Below, piece after piece: positions 7,144 through 46,390 of a stretch of DNA of 46,390 nt. A program made the position numbers and the translations under genes. The notes below the pieces were generated by a model. The model was not told the origin of the DNA and ran no database searches. It saw only the letters and a program-made list of their open reading frames with translations. The DNA comes from an uncultured Pseudomonadota bacterium (GTDB taxonomy: Bacteria; Pseudomonadota; Gammaproteobacteria; Methylococcales; Methylomonadaceae), in NCBI GenBank assembly GCA_903876445.1, contig CAIQZX010000179.1:1-46390 (forward strand), given 5' to 3'. Every line of letters starts with the position of its first letter. Positions within the stretch are counted from its first letter, which is position 1.

Positions 7144-9318
7144 TTATCCTTTCACACGAGTAATTTTTAATACAATCGAAAGCTCTTTTAATCGTCGCAT
7201 AATTTTGGCTAAATGCACGCGATTTTGAGCTGTTAAAATGATTGAATCCACACACACTCGCGCATCTTGATCTACTACAGTAACGTTTTCTATATTGGAA
7301 TCTAATTCTGAAATCGTGGTGGCAACTGTCGCTAAAGAACCTCGTTGGTTTAAAATTTGTACTCGAATTTCAGTGGCAAAATCCCCTTTTGTCTCACTTT
7401 CCCATTCAACATCTAACCAGTTATTTTGTTTCTTTTTAACTAACGAATGGTTATGGCAATCATGTTGATGCACAACAATCCCTTTTCCAGGATTGAAAAA
7501 ACCAATAATCGAATCGCCGGGAATTGGACGACAACATTTCGCTAACGTAACAACCATTCCTTCTGTGCCTTTAATCATCAATGGATTATTTTCACGTTTG
7601 CTACCATCATCGAGTTTGACATGGGTATGAACGTTATCTTGAGTAAGTTGTTTTGCTACCAAAAATGGCATTTTATTTCCTAAACCAATATCTTCTAGCA
7701 ATTTTTTGAACGTTTTAATCCCCATTATTTTTAATAATGTTTTAATTTTTTCTTCGCTAATTTCGCTCAGATAGATATTCATCGCCAACAATTCATTTTC
7801 AAGTAAACGCTTACCTAAATTGAGAGCTTCTTCACCTTCAATATGTTTCAAACGATTCCGAATAGCAGTTCGCGCTCGAGCTGTTACAACATAATTAAGC
7901 CATAATGGATTTGGTCTCGCGTGTTCAGCCGTAATAATTTCGACCGTTACGCCACTTTCTAATTGCGTTTGTAAAGGAATCAGTTGCTTATCAATTCGTG
8001 CCGAAACACACGCATTTCCTAAATCGGTATGAACGGCATAAGCAAAATCAACAATTGTTGAGCCACGCGGTAATTTAATGATTGAGCCTTTCGGTGTGAA
8101 AACAAACACTTCTTGAGGAAATAAATCCACTTTCAAATTATCAATAAATTCCAGTGAATCCCCGGCACTTTTTTGGATTTCCAATAAATCTTTTAACCAT
8201 TCATTGGCTAACGCTTGAAAATTACGACTTTTATCTGCGTCGGTTTTATATAGCCAATGCGCCGCAATCCCTGATTCTGACATTCGGTGCATTTTTTGTG
8301 TTCTAATTTGAACTTCAATCGGCACACCATAAGGACCAATTAAAACGGAATGTAATGACTGATAGCCATTTTCTTTCGGTAAGGCAATATAATCTTTAAA
8401 CCGTCCGGGAATCGGTTTGTACAAGTTGTGCATCATACCTAAAAGGCGATAACACGCATCCACATCATCACAATAAATTCGAAACGCATAAACATCAAAA
8501 ACATCCGCTAAAGGGATTTTTTTCTTCGCCATTTTTTTATAAATGCTATAGATATTTTTTTCACGTCCAATTACATCACAAGGAAAATCGGCGGCTTGCA
8601 AACGTGCTTTAATGGTACTTTCGATGTTATCAATCATTTTCCGGCGATTACCACGCGCCTTTTTAATAGCTCGATTTAATACCGCAAATCGCCATGGATA
8701 CATCGCTTCAAAACTTAAACCTTCTAATTTATGGCGAATGGAATTCATGCCTAAACGATTCGCAATCGGCGCATAAATATCAAGTGTTTCACGCGCAATT
8801 CGTCGTTTTTTCGGCGGCAACATCACACCGAGCGTTTGCATGTTATGCAAACGGTCGGCAAGTTTCACAATAATTACCCGCAAATCTTTCGCCATCGCCA
8901 AAAACATTTTGCGAACATTTTCAGCTTGCGCTTCGGCGTGAGATTGATTTTCAATTTTTGATAATTTTGTGACACCATCAACTAATTCAGCCACTTCATT
9001 GTTAAATTTTGCGGCAAGTTGTTTTTTACTAATTCCCGTATCTTCAATGACATCATGCAAAATCGCGGCGGTAATTCCATCCGCATCCATTCGAATTTCA
9101 GCCAAACTAATCGCAACTGAAACAGGATGACAAATATAAGGTTCACCACTTTTGCGAAATTGTCCTTTATGTGCGAGTGCGCCAAATTCATAAGCTCGCA
9201 AACATTGCTCGACATGTTTCGCATCTAAATAACTTTCTAAGGTGCTAGACAAACGAGAGACTAGTTGTGATTCTAACAATTCGACGGGCAATATAATGTC
9301 AGTTTTAGATGCGATCAT
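7144..9318 (-). CDS. spoT: Bifunctional (p)ppGpp synthetase/hydrolase (RelA/SpoT family)
   Basis: 724 aa; HD domain (HPVSVA...LHDVIEDT), synthetase motif (KENGYQSLHSVLIGPYGVPIEVQIRT), TGS (FVFTPKGSIIKLPRGSTIVDFAYAVHTDLG) and C-terminal ACT domain. Directly followed upstream by rpoZ, as is typical. Confidence 0.95.
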   Translation of the reverse strand: MIASKTDIILPVELLESQLVSRLSSTLESYLDAKHVEQCLRAYEFGALAHKGQFRKSGEPYICHPVSVAISLAEIRMDADGITAAILHDVIEDTGISKKQLAAKFNNEVAELVDGVTKLSKIENQSHAEAQAENVRKMFLAMAKDLRVIIVKLADRLHNMQTLGVMLPPKKRRIARETLDIYAPIANRLGMNSIRHKLEGLSFEAMYPWRFAVLNRAIKKARGNRRKMIDNIESTIKARLQAADFPCDVIGREKNIYSIYKKMAKKKIPLADVFDVYAFRIYCDDVDACYRLLGMMHNLYKPIPGRFKDYIALPKENGYQSLHSVLIGPYGVPIEVQIRTQKMHRMSESGIAAHWLYKTDADKSRNFQALANEWLKDLLEIQKSAGDSLEFIDNLKVDLFPQEVFVFTPKGSIIKLPRGSTIVDFAYAVHTDLGNACVSARIDKQLIPLQTQLESGVTVEIITAEHARPNPLWLNYVVTARARTAIRNRLKHIEGEEALNLGKRLLENELLAMNIYLSEISEEKIKTLLKIMGIKTFKKLLEDIGLGNKMPFLVAKQLTQDNVHTHVKLDDGSKRENNPLMIKGTEGMVVTLAKCCRPIPGDSIIGFFNPGKGIVVHQHDCHNHSLVKKKQNNWLDVEWESETKGDFATEIRVQILNQRGSLATVATTISELDSNIENVTVVDQDARVCVDSIILTAQNRVHLAKIMRRLKELSIVLKITRVKG

Positions 9319-39577: not shown

Positions 39578-41599
39578 CTAATCAGGTTGCGGAAACAAGA
39601 GTTTAAATGTTGTGCCTTGATTCGGGGGACTGGTTTTAGAATCTACAAAAATATGTCCTTTCGAATGATGAACCATGCCGCTAACAGTTGATAAACCTAA
39701 CCCCGTTCCTTCTCCAACTACTTTCGTTGTGAAAAAGGGATCAAAAATGCGATGAATAATTTCATCACTAATACCTGAACCATGATCCTGTACGCTTAAC
39801 ACAATAAATTTACCCGAAAGTGTTTTTGCACAAGAAGTACAAATATGATTTGGAAGTGCTTTCGCTTTCAATGAAACCGTAATTAAACCGCCTTGTTCTT
39901 TCATTGCATCGCGGGCATTAACCAATAAATTCGTTAGGATTTGATGCAAATCGATAGAATCAATTTTGATATTTAAATCTGTTTCAACTTCTAATTCAAG
40001 TTTGAATACGCTTGTTAAACCTGGACGAAGCATTGCTAACACTTCGTTGATAATTTCAATCGTCGGCTTGATAACAATATCTGTTTTGACGGTTCCTTGA
40101 CGAGAATAAGCCATCATTTTTTTGATTAAATCGACAGCGCGATAACCGGCTTTTTCAACTTGCGTCGCATTGTTAAAAATATCCGCTCTCAACTTTTCGT
40201 CTTGAATATCGTCAGAATAAAATTTATTTAATTCGTTATATCCTAACATTCCTGTCAAGATATTATTGAAATCATGGGCAATACCGGACGTTAAACGGCT
40301 GATAGTTTCTAGCTTTTGCATTTGATTCACTTGGGAATTTAATAATTTATTTTCATCGTAAGCGGCTAGCAGTTGCAGAGCCGTTTTTTGTTTTTCTTGG
40401 CTAATAATTTGATAACGGTCTATCAAAAGAAACGTAAATATAATAAGTTCTAACGCTGAACCAATTTGTGAACTATGAACGCTAAAAAAGTTTGTTGGTA
40501 TGACAGCAAATACTAACAGTGCATTTCCAATGACACCTATCGCCAACACAGAAAACGCAGTGAATAAAAAATAAGCGTTCCGTTTTTTTTCTCGCATTCC
40601 AATAACGCTCACAATTAAAACAAGCGATGCGGATGTTGCAAAAACAATGGGCATAAATTTGGCAAATTGAAATTCTAATAACAACACAACAGGAATAAAA
40701 AGTTGTAAACCAATAAAAAATTTTAAAATGTAATCTATTTTCGGTACTAAAATTGGTGTATCAAGCATTCGGCGGACAAAAAATAACTGTGACACTAAAG
40801 CGATAGAGCCAAAAGATAACGGGGCAATTTGGCTTAACCACGGTAAATCGTGCCATAAAAATTCGTGACCAAATCCTCTATTCCCAATGAATGCCAAGGC
40901 AACAAAAATAATCATGCACACATACAATAGATAATCGAATTCTTTTAAAACAACCGCGAAAATAAAATTCAACAATGCGATAGCAATGACAAGTCCAAAA
41001 TAAACAGCTTGAGAAGAATAATCGTTACGTTCTTTTATATAAAAATCATTGGGTTCCCATAAAAAAATGGGAAGAATCATAGCGTTGAGTGTGGAAATTC
41101 GTAAATAAATTGTGTGGTTGCTGTGTGCAGGTAAAACAAGTGGAAATGCAAAAATTCGACTTTGATAGGCGCGATTATTGAACGGGCGAACGTAACCAGT
41201 TTGAATCATTTGATAATTTTGGTTTTCAATTTGAAAGTAAAAATCGATGTACCCCAACAGCGGATGATTAACATCTAATATGCGTTCAATCGGTTTATCA
41301 CTGCTATTTTCTAATTCTAGTCGCAACCAATAAGCCGACGATGTATAGGACATATTCAAGGGTTTCTGACTAGATAAATTTGTTTGAAAACGTTGCGAAA
41401 TCGCTTCTTTTTGGACATCTTCTAATGTCAATGCACCCGTTGTATCTTCAAAAACGCCCAAATGTGAGCTTAATAAAATCGGTGACTTATTAAACGTACT
41501 AACATCCAGTGTGTTAGCTTTCGCAAAAGCCGAAGTCGCCATCAATTGTAAACCCAAAAATATTAAAACAATTAAGTAACATTCGATATTTTTTCTCAT
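39578..41599 (-). CDS. 7TMR-DISM sensor histidine kinase
   Basis: Signal peptide MRKNIECYLIVLIFLGLQLMATSAFA; DISMED2-like extracellular domain (MSYTSSAYWLRLELENSSDKPIERILDVNHPLLGYIDFYF); 7 TM; HisKA/HATPase. The ORF extends to 41686 but the signal peptide starts at 41599. Confidence 0.9.
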   Translation of the reverse strand: MRKNIECYLIVLIFLGLQLMATSAFAKANTLDVSTFNKSPILLSSHLGVFEDTTGALTLEDVQKEAISQRFQTNLSSQKPLNMSYTSSAYWLRLELENSSDKPIERILDVNHPLLGYIDFYFQIENQNYQMIQTGYVRPFNNRAYQSRIFAFPLVLPAHSNHTIYLRISTLNAMILPIFLWEPNDFYIKERNDYSSQAVYFGLVIAIALLNFIFAVVLKEFDYLLYVCMIIFVALAFIGNRGFGHEFLWHDLPWLSQIAPLSFGSIALVSQLFFVRRMLDTPILVPKIDYILKFFIGLQLFIPVVLLLEFQFAKFMPIVFATSASLVLIVSVIGMREKKRNAYFLFTAFSVLAIGVIGNALLVFAVIPTNFFSVHSSQIGSALELIIFTFLLIDRYQIISQEKQKTALQLLAAYDENKLLNSQVNQMQKLETISRLTSGIAHDFNNILTGMLGYNELNKFYSDDIQDEKLRADIFNNATQVEKAGYRAVDLIKKMMAYSRQGTVKTDIVIKPTIEIINEVLAMLRPGLTSVFKLELEVETDLNIKIDSIDLHQILTNLLVNARDAMKEQGGLITVSLKAKALPNHICTSCAKTLSGKFIVLSVQDHGSGISDEIIHRIFDPFFTTKVVGEGTGLGLSTVSGMVHHSKGHIFVDSKTSPPNQGTTFKLLFPQPD

Positions 41600-41722
41600 T
41601 GAAAATTTTTTCCTAAATAGCTTGGTATTTTTATGGTTTTCTAATTCCAAAATCGATATTAGCATAATGTATCGTTGATGAACCATTCTTTAAAATAATG
41701 AATTTCAAACCTTTTTACCAAT

Positions 41723-42907
41723 TTACAACGCCAACAGGAATGAAAATATCAGTAATTTTAACAACAAACATATTTGAGAAAAATAAATCGTAAAATTGTT
41801 TATCGGAATTATTCCGATTAGCAACGTGGCGTGTTCGATTATGCCTATCGATAATATCGAAAAAGCAGCAAATACAAAATAAGCGTGTCTTTGTTGCTTT
41901 AGAACTCCGATGATGCTGACAATCAACGATAAAATGGCAGACATGATAAAAATGATAATGATATATTTAGCAAACTGAAAGGTAAAAAGTAACAAAATTG
42001 CCGTAACGAAATGCAAGCTAATTAACAACTTAAAAGCCAAATCAATTTTTGGGGCAAGCGTTGGGACATCAAGAATTCGACGGATAAATAACAATTGAAA
42101 TATCACCGCAAACGAAGCAAAAAACATTGAGCCTATACACGTCAACCACGTTGAATTTAACCACAAAAGTTCACTACCAAATCCTCTGCCGAAGATAACA
42201 AGCAAAGCAAAAAACATCGTCATGCAGAAATATAAAAAATAGTTCAATTCTTTAAAAAAAACGGCAAAGAAAAAATTTAACATAGCGATTGCAATCACGA
42301 TAAAAATATAAATAGATTGAATAAAATCGTCGTTGTTATTTTTTAAATAAAAATCTGTCGATTCCCACAATGAAATCGGAATAATCATAGAATTAGGCGT
42401 TTCAACCCGAAAATAAATGACGTTGTTACTGTGTTCTGGCAAAAAAATCGGAAATGCAAAAGAGCGACTTTTATAGGCGCGATTTTCAAAAGGTTTTGAA
42501 TAGCCGGTATGAATCGGCGGATGATTTTGCTGTTCAGTTTGAAAATAGAAATCGAGATTTGCAAGCAGGGGATAATCGACATTTAACATTCGCGAAATGG
42601 GTTTATCGCCGCTATTTTTTAATTGCAATCGCAGCCAATAAGCGGATGAAGTATAAGACATTGTTAAGGGTTTTTCTGCGGGAAAATCCGTTTGAAAACG
42701 TGGTGCAATATCTTCTTTTTGAATATCATCCAATGTTAAAACACCCGTCGAATCTTCCAAAACAGAAAGATAGGAACTCAATAAAATGGGTGACTGATCA
42801 ATTAGGCTAACGTCCAAAGTGTTAGCTTTCGCAAAAGCCACGTTTGCTATCAATTGCAAACTCAAGAAAATTAAAACAATTAAATAACAAGCGATACTTT
42901 TTTTCAT
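41723..42907 (-). CDS. 7TMR-DISM protein lacking a kinase domain (paralog of the adjacent gene)
   Basis: 394 aa, colinear with the N-terminal part of the 39578-41599 product; ends after TM7 (LLKLLIFSFLLAL*). Confidence 0.88.
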   Translation of the reverse strand: MKKSIACYLIVLIFLSLQLIANVAFAKANTLDVSLIDQSPILLSSYLSVLEDSTGVLTLDDIQKEDIAPRFQTDFPAEKPLTMSYTSSAYWLRLQLKNSGDKPISRMLNVDYPLLANLDFYFQTEQQNHPPIHTGYSKPFENRAYKSRSFAFPIFLPEHSNNVIYFRVETPNSMIIPISLWESTDFYLKNNNDDFIQSIYIFIVIAIAMLNFFFAVFFKELNYFLYFCMTMFFALLVIFGRGFGSELLWLNSTWLTCIGSMFFASFAVIFQLLFIRRILDVPTLAPKIDLAFKLLISLHFVTAILLLFTFQFAKYIIIIFIMSAILSLIVSIIGVLKQQRHAYFVFAAFSILSIGIIEHATLLIGIIPINNFTIYFSQICLLLKLLIFSFLLAL

Positions 42908-43105: not shown

Positions 43106-43479
43106 TGGTGGAGGCGGGGGGAATTGAACCCCCGTCCGCAAGCACTCCGCCACAAGGTCTACATACTTATCTCGTGCTTTGATTTAGCCGATGACATTCC
43201 GACGAGCCAAAAAGGTCATCAACGATTCTGTAGAGTTTTAGCGCATCCATTCCAGACAAACTTCAGCGCGATCTTATGTAGATGACCTCTGAGCGTTCCG
43301 GAGAACTCCACCCGCATAAGCACAGATGGTCAAAGGAATGGTGCTGTTATTAAGCAGCTAGAGCCATTGAGTAGTTTTCGTCATTTGCGAATACTTAAGT
43401 TTCAGTAGGATTTACGAGGTGTACTGTCCTCGGTATGCACTCTAGGTTTCGCTACCCACGTCGAAGCCATGTCGCCCCC
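43106..43479 (-). ncRNA. ssrA: tmRNA, copy A
   Basis: Minus strand: GGGGGCGACATGGCTTCGACG...GCAAATGACGAAAACTACTCAATGGCTCTAGCTGCTTAA (tag ANDENYSMALAA)...GGACGGGGGTTCAATTCCCCCCGCCTCCACCA, with an intact tRNA-Ala-like acceptor. Confidence 0.97.
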
Positions 43480-43864
43480 TGAGTAGATGGTTAGGATAAC
43501 AAGAATGTGACGTATTACCAATTCTTTTTTCAAACTAACCGATACTTTTTTCTTAACTTTCGTTAACTGCATCCCATAACAGTGTTATGAGTGGGTGTAT
43601 CTACCAATGCGAAGCTATAAAACCGCTCCGCTCTTTGTTTGCTAGCAAAGGGCTTGGTTTTCGCCAGAAGGAACAGTGCCAGCAAGTGCATTTTATACTG
43701 GATTTTCACTGAAAACAACGCATTGAGATTATTAACAAATATTAGAAAATATCAGCGTTTTGGATACTATGACGCAACCTTCTATTATCATCAAACTACA
43801 TTGTATTAGCTATAACCGAAGAAAAACATGAATTTGTGGCAATTTTGATTCGTGATAATAGCAA

Positions 43865-43893
43865 TTGGCATTATTAAAATTATCGTGTAACCT
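43865..43893 (+). promoter_or_regulatory. Sigma70-like promoter of plus-strand ssrA copy
   Basis: TTGGCA (43865-43870), 17-nt spacer, TAACCT (43888-43893), 14 nt before the mature 5' end. Confidence 0.6.
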
Positions 43894-43907
43894 ATGTGCT
43901 ACTTAAC

Positions 43908-44294
43908 GGGGGCGACTTGGCTTCGACGTGGGTAGCGAAACCTAGAGTGCATGCCGAGGACAGTACACCTCGTAAAATCTACTGAAATTTAAGTATTCGC
44001 AAATGACGAAAACTACTCAATGGCTTTAGCTGCTTAAACACAGCACCATTCCTTTGACCATCTGTGCTTATGCGGGTGGAGTTCAAATGCCTCGGCAAGA
44101 GAACGTTCAGAGGTCATTCACATAAGATCGCGCTGAAGTCTGTCCGGAATGGATGCGCTAAAACCCTACGGAATCGTTGGTGACTTTTTTGGCTCGTCGG
44201 AATGTCACTGACTAAATCTAAAGAACGAGATAAGCATGTAGACCTTGTGGCGGAGTGCTTACGGACGGGGGTTCAATTCCCCCCGCCTCCACCA
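43908..44294 (+). ncRNA. ssrA: tmRNA, copy B
   Basis: GGGGGCGACTTGGCTTCGACG...GCAAATGACGAAAACTACTCAATGGCTTTAGCTGCTTAA (tag ANDENYSMALAA)...GGACGGGGGTTCAATTCCCCCCGCCTCCACCA. Confidence 0.97.
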
Positions 44295-44301
44295 AATACC
44301 G

Positions 44302-44338
44302 AAAAACCCGCTAAGTTTTAAACTTAGCGGGTTTTTTA
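44302..44338 (+). terminator. Terminator of plus-strand ssrA copy
   Basis: AAAAACCCGCTAAGTTTTAAACTTAGCGGGTTTTTT. Confidence 0.92.
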
Positions 44339-44490
44339 TTGTCCAATTCAAAGTGATTTGGTTCCCACTTGCACCAAAAATAGTGGTATTGCTAAAGGCA
44401 GAATATTGATTGTAGACGTAAATTTTCAAAAATATACCCAGCAAAAAATGCTATGCTCACATTTAATTCGTTTTTAACTCTTAAAAAATC

Positions 44491-45624
44491 ATGCTCATAA
44501 ATATCACGACCCATTCGCCTTTTCCTCGTTATTTTTATTACGCGCTAACAGTTGCCATTGCGTTGAATTTAACGTCTTGCAGCACCACGCCCGAACGTGA
44601 AATCACGACGTTACCGGCAATTGAACAAGTCGCACCACCGATTTCAGTTGAACTGTCTACCCCGATTATTAAACCGATGTTGCCGGAAACAAATGTGCCA
44701 ATTTCGCCCACCACGCCACTTTCAATTAACCAAAATGTTAAAAATTTCGTGCGCCAAATGGTATCGAAACATCATTTCAATGAACTGGAATTAACGCAAT
44801 TATTGCAATCAGCGGTAATTAAAGAAAGTATTTTGAAAAGCATTTCATCGCCGTCGGAAGGTTTACCGTGGCATAAATACCGCAAAATTTTTCTCACCGA
44901 AGCGCGTATTGAGGGCGGTGTAAAATTTTGGCATGAAAATGCGGCAGCGTTAGAAAGCGTGTCACAACAAACGGGCGTTGCGCCCGAAATTATCGTGGCG
45001 ATTATCGGCGTGGAAACGGGTTACGGCAAAAACATGGGCAATCATCGCGTTCTCGATGCGTTGGCAACGCTTGCGTTTGCGTATCCGCCGCGAAGTTCGT
45101 TTTTTACTGGCGAACTCGAAAGTTTTTTATTGTTATGCCGCGAAGAAAACATGAATCCGCGTGAACCAATGGGTTCTTATGCCGGTGCAATGGGTTATCC
45201 GCAATTTATGCCGAGCAGTTTTCGCGCGTTAGCCAAAGATTTTGAACATGACGGACACCGCGATATTTGGCACAATCCGCGTGACGCAATTGCCAGTGTG
45301 GCGAATTATTTTGCGAAAAACGATTGGCAACACGGTCAAGGAATTGCCATTCGCGCCACGGCAATCGGAAATCAGTATAAATCCGCGTTGAATAAAGACT
45401 TAAAACCGAATTCAACCCTCGCCCAATTAAGCCGCCTCAACGTCAGCGCGACAGAAAATTTTCCCGCCAATATCAACGTGAAATTAGTAGCGTTGCAGCA
45501 GTTAGACGGCGACGAATTATGGCTGGGACTGCACAATTTTTATGTGATTACGCGCTACAATCACAGCCCGTTATATGCAATGGCGGCTTATCAATTGAGC
45601 CAAGAAATAAAGCAACGGCGATAA
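44491..45624 (+). CDS. mltB: Lytic murein transglycosylase B (lipoprotein)
   Basis: 377 aa; lipobox LTSC; IVAIIGVETGYGKNMGNHRVLDALATLAFAYPPRSSFF, GSYAGAMGYPQFMPSSFRALAKDFEHDGHRDIWHNPRDAIASVANYF. Confidence 0.95.
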   Translation: MLINITTHSPFPRYFYYALTVAIALNLTSCSTTPEREITTLPAIEQVAPPISVELSTPIIKPMLPETNVPISPTTPLSINQNVKNFVRQMVSKHHFNELELTQLLQSAVIKESILKSISSPSEGLPWHKYRKIFLTEARIEGGVKFWHENAAALESVSQQTGVAPEIIVAIIGVETGYGKNMGNHRVLDALATLAFAYPPRSSFFTGELESFLLLCREENMNPREPMGSYAGAMGYPQFMPSSFRALAKDFEHDGHRDIWHNPRDAIASVANYFAKNDWQHGQGIAIRATAIGNQYKSALNKDLKPNSTLAQLSRLNVSATENFPANINVKLVALQQLDGDELWLGLHNFYVITRYNHSPLYAMAAYQLSQEIKQRR

Positions 45625-45720
45625 CTTTCATTTTTTTGGTATCATAAGCAGTAATCGGCAAGCGGTTATTTTGTCGATGCTTTCATAACAATAATATTTT
45701 TAGACTCAGGAGCTTTTACA

Positions 45721-46161
45721 ATGAAAAAAATGACTACTCCGTTCGCAATGGCAATGAGCGCAGCGTTAATCTCAAGCGTTTCGGCAACTGCTGTAAATGC
45801 TGAAGCTAATCCGTTTGGCGCAACCGAATTATCATCGGGTTATATGCAACTTGCCGCCGCTGAAATGGCGTGTGGTGCGGGCATGAAAATGGAAAAACCG
45901 AAAACTGCTGAAGGCGCGTGCGCTGGCAAAAAATCCGCGTCTGGCGAAAAATCTCCCGAAGGAAAATGCGGCGATATGATGGACGGCGACAAAATGAAAG
46001 CGGGCATGGAAGCATCGTGCGGCGGCATGATGAAAGGCAAAGAAGGTTCGTGTGGCGAAATGCACGGCGCGATGTCAAAAGAAGGCGCGTGTGGTGCAGC
46101 AAAATCTGAAGGCAAACCCTTAGACAATTCGCCGTTATACGACGTGCATCCGCCTCAATAA
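45721..46161 (+). CDS. Secreted Cys/Met/Gly/Lys-rich low-complexity protein; candidate MNIO-modified (bufferin/HvfA-like) metallophore RiPP precursor
   Basis: 146 aa with signal peptide (MKKMTTPFAMAMSAALISSVSATAVNAEA), NPFGATELSSGYMQLA, then six Cys in xC[GA] contexts including EGKCG, EGSCG, EGACG. Confidence 0.75.
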   Translation: MKKMTTPFAMAMSAALISSVSATAVNAEANPFGATELSSGYMQLAAAEMACGAGMKMEKPKTAEGACAGKKSASGEKSPEGKCGDMMDGDKMKAGMEASCGGMMKGKEGSCGEMHGAMSKEGACGAAKSEGKPLDNSPLYDVHPPQ

Positions 46162-46174
46162 TTGAGCAATTCAC

Positions 46175-46390
46175 ATGAAAAAATTTTCAACATCTTTAGC
46201 GGTTGGTGCGGTGTTAATATCAGGCATTGCGAGCGCAGACGTAAATCCGTTCGGTGCAACTGAATTACCGTCGGCATATTTGCAACTTGCTGAAACAGAA
46301 ATGGCGTGCGGCGCGAACATGAAAATGGAAGCACCCAAAGACCAATCAAAAGAAGAGGCTGAAAAAGCAGCCAAAGAAAAAGCGGCTGCC
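46175..46390 (+). CDS. Second, paralogous secreted precursor-like protein, truncated by window end
   Basis: ATG at 46175: MKKFSTSLAVGAVLISGIASADVNPFGATELPSAYLQLAETEMACGANMKMEAPKDQSKEEAEKAAKEKAAA... It is open to the window edge, which is why it is missing from the supplied ORF list. Confidence 0.85.
   Translation, partial: MKKFSTSLAVGAVLISGIASADVNPFGATELPSAYLQLAETEMACGANMKMEAPKDQSKEEAEKAAKEKAAA

Follow-up and report, generated by a model that had tools for sequence, protein, structure and literature searches.

Tandem HvfA-like precursor genes located apart from the MNIO-HvfC genes in a genus of Methylococcales

The two tandem genes at the end of the analysed DNA (46,390 nucleotides from an uncultured member of the Methylomonadaceae, here called the window) encode secreted proteins, P1 and P2, which we consider, with a probability of about 0.8, to be HvfA/oxazolin-like (captophorin-type) precursors that are matured in trans by an HvfB-type MNIO together with HvfC and bind Cu(I). 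The direct basis of this reading is homology, the gene order in relatives, the presence of one MNIO per genome, the cysteine motif and the residues of the enzyme; from these we infer the modification, the export, the copper binding and the role of P2 as a substrate. The earlier note on this DNA regarded the host as a probable methanotroph, and this assignment is right since the genome that holds the window (G000) encodes pmoA. In methanotrophs with pMMO, copper plays a central part. The closest named relatives are uncultured Methylococcales MAGs (e.g., LJ-5-9m_bin-0986, STB_102 and UBA10906), judging from the record names lake or freshwater organisms, and 18 genomes of the genus form the comparison set. 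If the proposed reading is true, peptides of the captophorin type occur widely in the Methylococcales, with one freshwater genus in which the precursor is parted from its enzyme. Being unlinked, such precursors would be missed by searches that start from MNIO neighbours. The genus would then offer a naturally occurring trans arrangement in which to study how HvfC recognises the leader and whether a precursor with a single cysteine is a substrate. The features concerned are listed in Table 1.

Table 1. Coordinates of the precursor genes and associated features in the window.
Feature	Position	Strand	Remarks
mltB, lytic transglycosylase	44491..45624	+	upstream neighbour of P1, conserved in most of the genus
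P1, HvfA-like captophorin-type precursor	45721..46161	+	146 aa with six Cys; core rich in Met
P1 signal peptide, residues 1-27 ending ATAVNA	45721..45801	+	putative, by inspection
P1 leader block NPFGATELSSGYMQLA	45808..45855	+	conserved across the family; presumed recognition region
P1 core: EMACG, EGACA, EGKCG, EASCG, EGSCG, EGACG	45862..46095	+	
P1 C-terminal LDNSPLYDVHPPQ (DNSPLYDVHP tail, Cys-free)	46120..46158	+	kept in most P1 of the genus, missing from MNIO-adjacent relatives
P2, shorter paralogue	46175..46390	+	P1-type leader and a single Cys (EMACG); K/A/E-rich tail; truncated at the end of the contig
Near-identical stretch to G010:C37, probable chimeric join at 43778	43778..46390	.	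99.8% identity

The N-terminus of P1 shows on inspection lysines, a hydrophobic stretch and an A-x-A-like end as expected for a putative Sec signal peptide. An AGGAG sequence precedes the open reading frame at 45708-45712, and no sigma-70 promoter was recognized upstream by consensus. In the leader the residues N30, P31, F32, E36, L37, G40, Y41, M42 and Q43 are invariant in 18 aligned rows. Each of the six cysteines of P1 is directly followed by Gly or Ala and has Glu three residues before it (E-x-x-C-[G/A]), and the EGKCG, EGSCG and EGACG motifs mentioned in the earlier note are all found in the core. Methionine makes up approximately 11% of the sequence after the leader. In 14 P1 rows from the genus, including L072, for which the wrong open reading frame had been taken, 90 of 107 cysteines are found in the context [ED]xxC[GA] compared with a mean of 4.1 (maximum 9) in 200 composition-preserving shuffles. 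P1/P2-type precursors look disordered.

P2 follows P1 after a gap of 13 bp. Both open reading frames could be confirmed, as well as their common block of signal peptide, NPFGATEL and EMACGA, in which 35 of 61 residues are identical (57%, BLASTP E 5e-20). The complete P2 was taken from the 99.8%-identical contig G010:C37 (L040) and comprises 83 amino acids with one cysteine in total, which lies within E-x-x-C-[G/A]. In this contig P2 is followed by bamA and then by skp-, fabZ- and lpxA-like genes, the last three named by reading their translations. Thus, the proposal that a biosynthetic locus continues past the end of the window did not hold, as bamA comes next and no MNIO gene is present within the stretches examined. 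P2, or the P1-P2 pair, is present in 10 of the 18 genomes of the genus and was not found in the other 8. In all 11 P2 rows the core has one or two cysteines, with an additional one in the leader (G007) and in the signal peptide (C43), respectively. Of 15 cysteines counted, a number which leaves out the two P2 rows from C43 and G003, 14 are in the substrate context. The leader of P2 is strictly conserved, the tail poorly. In a phylogenetic tree all P1 and P2 of the genus fall on one side of a branch with support 98/87 versus 61 rows of the family, which fits P2 being the product of a duplication inside the genus lineage. This origin is only indicative because the resolution of the tree is poor: it has too few columns for fine detail and includes the wrong L072 frame.

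The assignment of P1 follows from its relatives. Outside the genus, 64 loci of Methylococcales (Methylobacter, Methylovulum, Methyloglobulus, Crenothrix and others) contain homologous precursors, and in 61 of them the precursor gene immediately precedes an MNIO (HvfB) gene, in 60 together with HvfC. Two of the three loci without MNIO end at contig ends. The homologous precursors show 50-71% identity, their leader is like that of P1, and 445 of the 529 cysteines in the precursors from outside the genus are in the [ED]xxC[GA] context compared with 21 after shuffling. This gene order supports the suggestion that P1 and P2 are HvfA-like MNIO substrates, as far as homology can indicate it. It is also the reason for classifying P1 as HvfA/oxazolin-like and not as DUF2282 bufferin; of the originally proposed "bufferin/HvfA-like" identity the second half stands by homology, and bufferin in the strict sense has to be dropped, as DUF2282 is not found. 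The suggested HMM search gave a divided answer. P1 of the window matches neither the curated HvfA models NF050188 and NF050137 nor other curated models, and the P1 paralogue on contig C43 reaches 21.6 bits with NF050188 (cut-off 95). Six relatives (L051, L052, L053, L054, L097 and L110), five of them MNIO-adjacent, pass the cut-off of the HvfA-domain model NF050137; L110 stands for Methylobacter tundripaludum, a methanotroph in culture in which the operon is present. Because the curated models are unmatched, P1 is called HvfA-like by homology and no formal NF050188 membership is claimed. Weak matches to Phr, AimP and UbiD models were judged to be effects of the signal peptide or of composition. 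One genome (G019) encodes a second, KCG-repeat precursor (L054 4102-4461, plus strand) with no MNIO within the 12 kb examined.

The maturation enzymes are encoded elsewhere. G000 has one MNIO (438 bits with the HvfB model NF003818, cut-off 360), related to the solved chains 3bww and 3dee, and its gene is overlapped by that of an HvfC (279 bits with NF050145, cut-off 142). Both genes are on the minus strand of L008, HvfB at 7906-8724 and HvfC at 7178-7909. Hence the expected pair of DUF692/MNIO and DUF2063-type partner exists in the genome, only not adjacent to P1 and P2. The motifs GLRR and ERDF occur in 61 of 61 MNIO sequences and fit Arg15/Arg16 and Asp249-Phe250 of FonB if the two are equated, which would place these enzymes in the Lys-Cys class (PMC13097082). 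Among the 18 genomes of the genus a P1-like gene and a full MNIO are each found in 17, always on separate contigs; in G002 the MNIO is a fragment at a contig end. It was assumed that the end of the window hides the MNIO gene, but the single MNIO of each genome lies on another contig. Contig breaks do not account for this separation because in G011 both genes are well inside long contigs. In the usual layout the precursors follow mltB, often before bamA, and the one MNIO is located elsewhere, mostly with HvfC. MNIO and HvfC themselves are split in three species, G005 (on longer contigs), G015 and G002 (on separate contigs). No [ED]xxC[GA]-rich precursor was detected near MNIO in 13 loci of the genus. 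In G015, not among these 13, the MNIO gene is overlapped by that of an HvfX-family protein (L159 1246-2487, minus strand; over the HvfX cut-off) with an N-terminal cyclase-like domain, and genes for an ECF sigma factor, its neighbouring anti-sigma factor and a canonical HvfA with KCG repeats are found upstream. Another stand-alone precursor of G015 (L161 3723-4127, minus strand) adjoins a nitrilase-like gene. In G001 a cluster of sigma factor, anti-sigma factor and HvfA-like genes has an HvfX homologue close by and the MNIO is elsewhere. DoxX gave one match in G000 (23.0 bits, cut-off 23.6), and DoxX/HvfX are unlinked to P1 and P2 in this genome. As P1 and P2 have no linked enzyme gene in the genus, the pairing of precursor and enzyme in trans is made by homology only.

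The maturation route probably follows that of HvfBC and FonBC, on which it is modelled (PMC13419390, PMC13097082). After translation the NPFGATEL...GYMQLA leader of P1 and P2 would be bound by the HvfC partner, and the cysteines of E-x-x-C-[G/A] would be oxidised to 5-thiooxazoles in the cytoplasm by the di-iron HvfB-type MNIO. The modified peptide would then be exported via Sec and bind Cu(I) in the periplasm, with copper buffering as its putative role in a pMMO methanotroph. For FonBC the residue that follows Cys must be Gly or Ala, whereas A, R or T are tolerated in front of it (PMC13097082); Gly or Ala follows 6 of 6 cysteines in P1 and 1 of 1 in P2. In evolutionary terms, the precursor genes of the genus probably left an ancestral hvfA-hvfB-hvfC operon and settled behind mltB, where duplication would have led to the long P1 and the short one- or two-cysteine P2.

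The lack of linkage between the genes for precursor and enzyme in the whole genus, and the methionine content of P1 after the leader, would also suit a Met/Cys-rich periplasmic metal binder whose MNIO modification was lost in this genus and which holds Cu(I) by thiol and thioether groups alone. We regard such an unmodified P1 as very unlikely: leader, Glu -3 and Gly/Ala +1 are still conserved as in the MNIO-adjacent relatives, and the genus keeps MNIO and HvfC with their specificity residues intact. For P2 the case is more balanced. Its role as a substrate was counted against because it has one cysteine and a one-repeat peptide was left unmodified by FonBC (PMC13097082). Quite possibly, albeit with less than even odds, P2 is no metallophore but competes by means of its leader for HvfC-MNIO, acts as a helper or is a copy in decay, as its few core cysteines, its poorly conserved tail and its patchy occurrence in the genus suggest. 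The strict conservation of the leader and the retained substrate context of the cysteines point in the opposite direction, as does locus L114, where a short two-Cys tandem precursor adjoins the MNIO operon (according to the tree this pair is independent of P1-P2). It is rather doubtful, but conceivable, that one MNIO-HvfC pair serves a scattered set of unlinked precursors, one to four in each genome, among them a P2 class with a job other than bulk chelation, e.g., delivering copper or tuning the maturase. If true, the genus shows a stepwise dispersal of a RiPP operon down to an MNIO parted from its partner.

The provenance of the genes has to be considered separately. The last 2.6 kb of the window (43778-46390) are 99.8% identical to a contig of another species of the genus (G010:C37), whereas 14001-43778 shows mostly 76-85% identity to G010 and the MNIO-HvfC genes of G000 and G010 share 77%. 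At the abrupt shift at 43778 two tmRNA genes (43106-43479, minus strand; 43908-44294, plus strand), 90% identical and with the common tag ANDENYSMALAA, stand face to face, a pair best explained by a chimeric join. A dispersed repeat (43439-43771) adjoins this position; many contigs of G000, G010 and G011 contain incomplete copies of it. Upstream, the window encodes neighbouring membrane sensor paralogues (41723-42907 and 39578-41686, both minus strand), the copy of 394 amino acids being without the histidine kinase part. Probably the contig is chimeric, and 43778-46390 derives from an organism other than that of 1-43778. G000's own precursor locus is then probably on contig C43, which has the same order mltB-P1-P2 (L009 3854-4486 and 4500-4793). 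Recent transfer from the G010 lineage into G000, giving two precursor loci (C43 and C179), is an unlikely explanation. The stretch is contiguous in the assembly and contains a tmRNA gene, and tmRNA genes are common integration sites. Against transfer speak the sudden jump in identity, the inverted tmRNA pair with the adjoining repeat and the fact that two mltB-P1 loci occur in no other genome of the genus among those examined. The gene identities of P1 and P2 are unaffected by the chimeric join.

Among known systems Buf1 bufferins (DUF2282) are comparable as secreted MNIO substrates with a copper-buffering role, both presumed for P1 and P2, but P1 has no DUF2282 match and differs in its cysteine pattern. 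Correspondingly, a DUF2282 bufferin was rejected (no Pfam match; the MNIO of G000 reaches 281.6 bits, BufB cut-off 310), as was methanobactin (46.8 bits with the MbnB-type model, cut-off 325). Closest are the HvfA/HvfB/HvfC oxazolin system and captophorins such as fontiphorin (PMC13097082, PMC13419390), which share the putative Sec-type signal peptide, the repeated E-x-x-C-G core and a genome with an HvfB-family MNIO (Lys-Cys class residues) and DUF2063 HvfC. In contrast with them, P1 and P2 are encoded outside the MNIO operon, a short tandem paralogue is present, P1 falls below the curated HvfA models and, in place of AEGKCGEGKCG, its core has mainly EGACG/EMACG motifs separated by spacers rich in Met. 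MNIO systems with unlinked precursors and with tandem precursors were already described (PMC12452194), so the novelty is modest; the layout is unusual. With the Buf_EGKCG/oxazolin family of that work P1 and P2 have stand-alone or tandem precursors in common; they differ by the relocation throughout a genus with mltB as frequent neighbour and by the split of MNIO and HvfC in three species. What is newly seen here is the short one- or two-cysteine P2 together with a scattered pathway.
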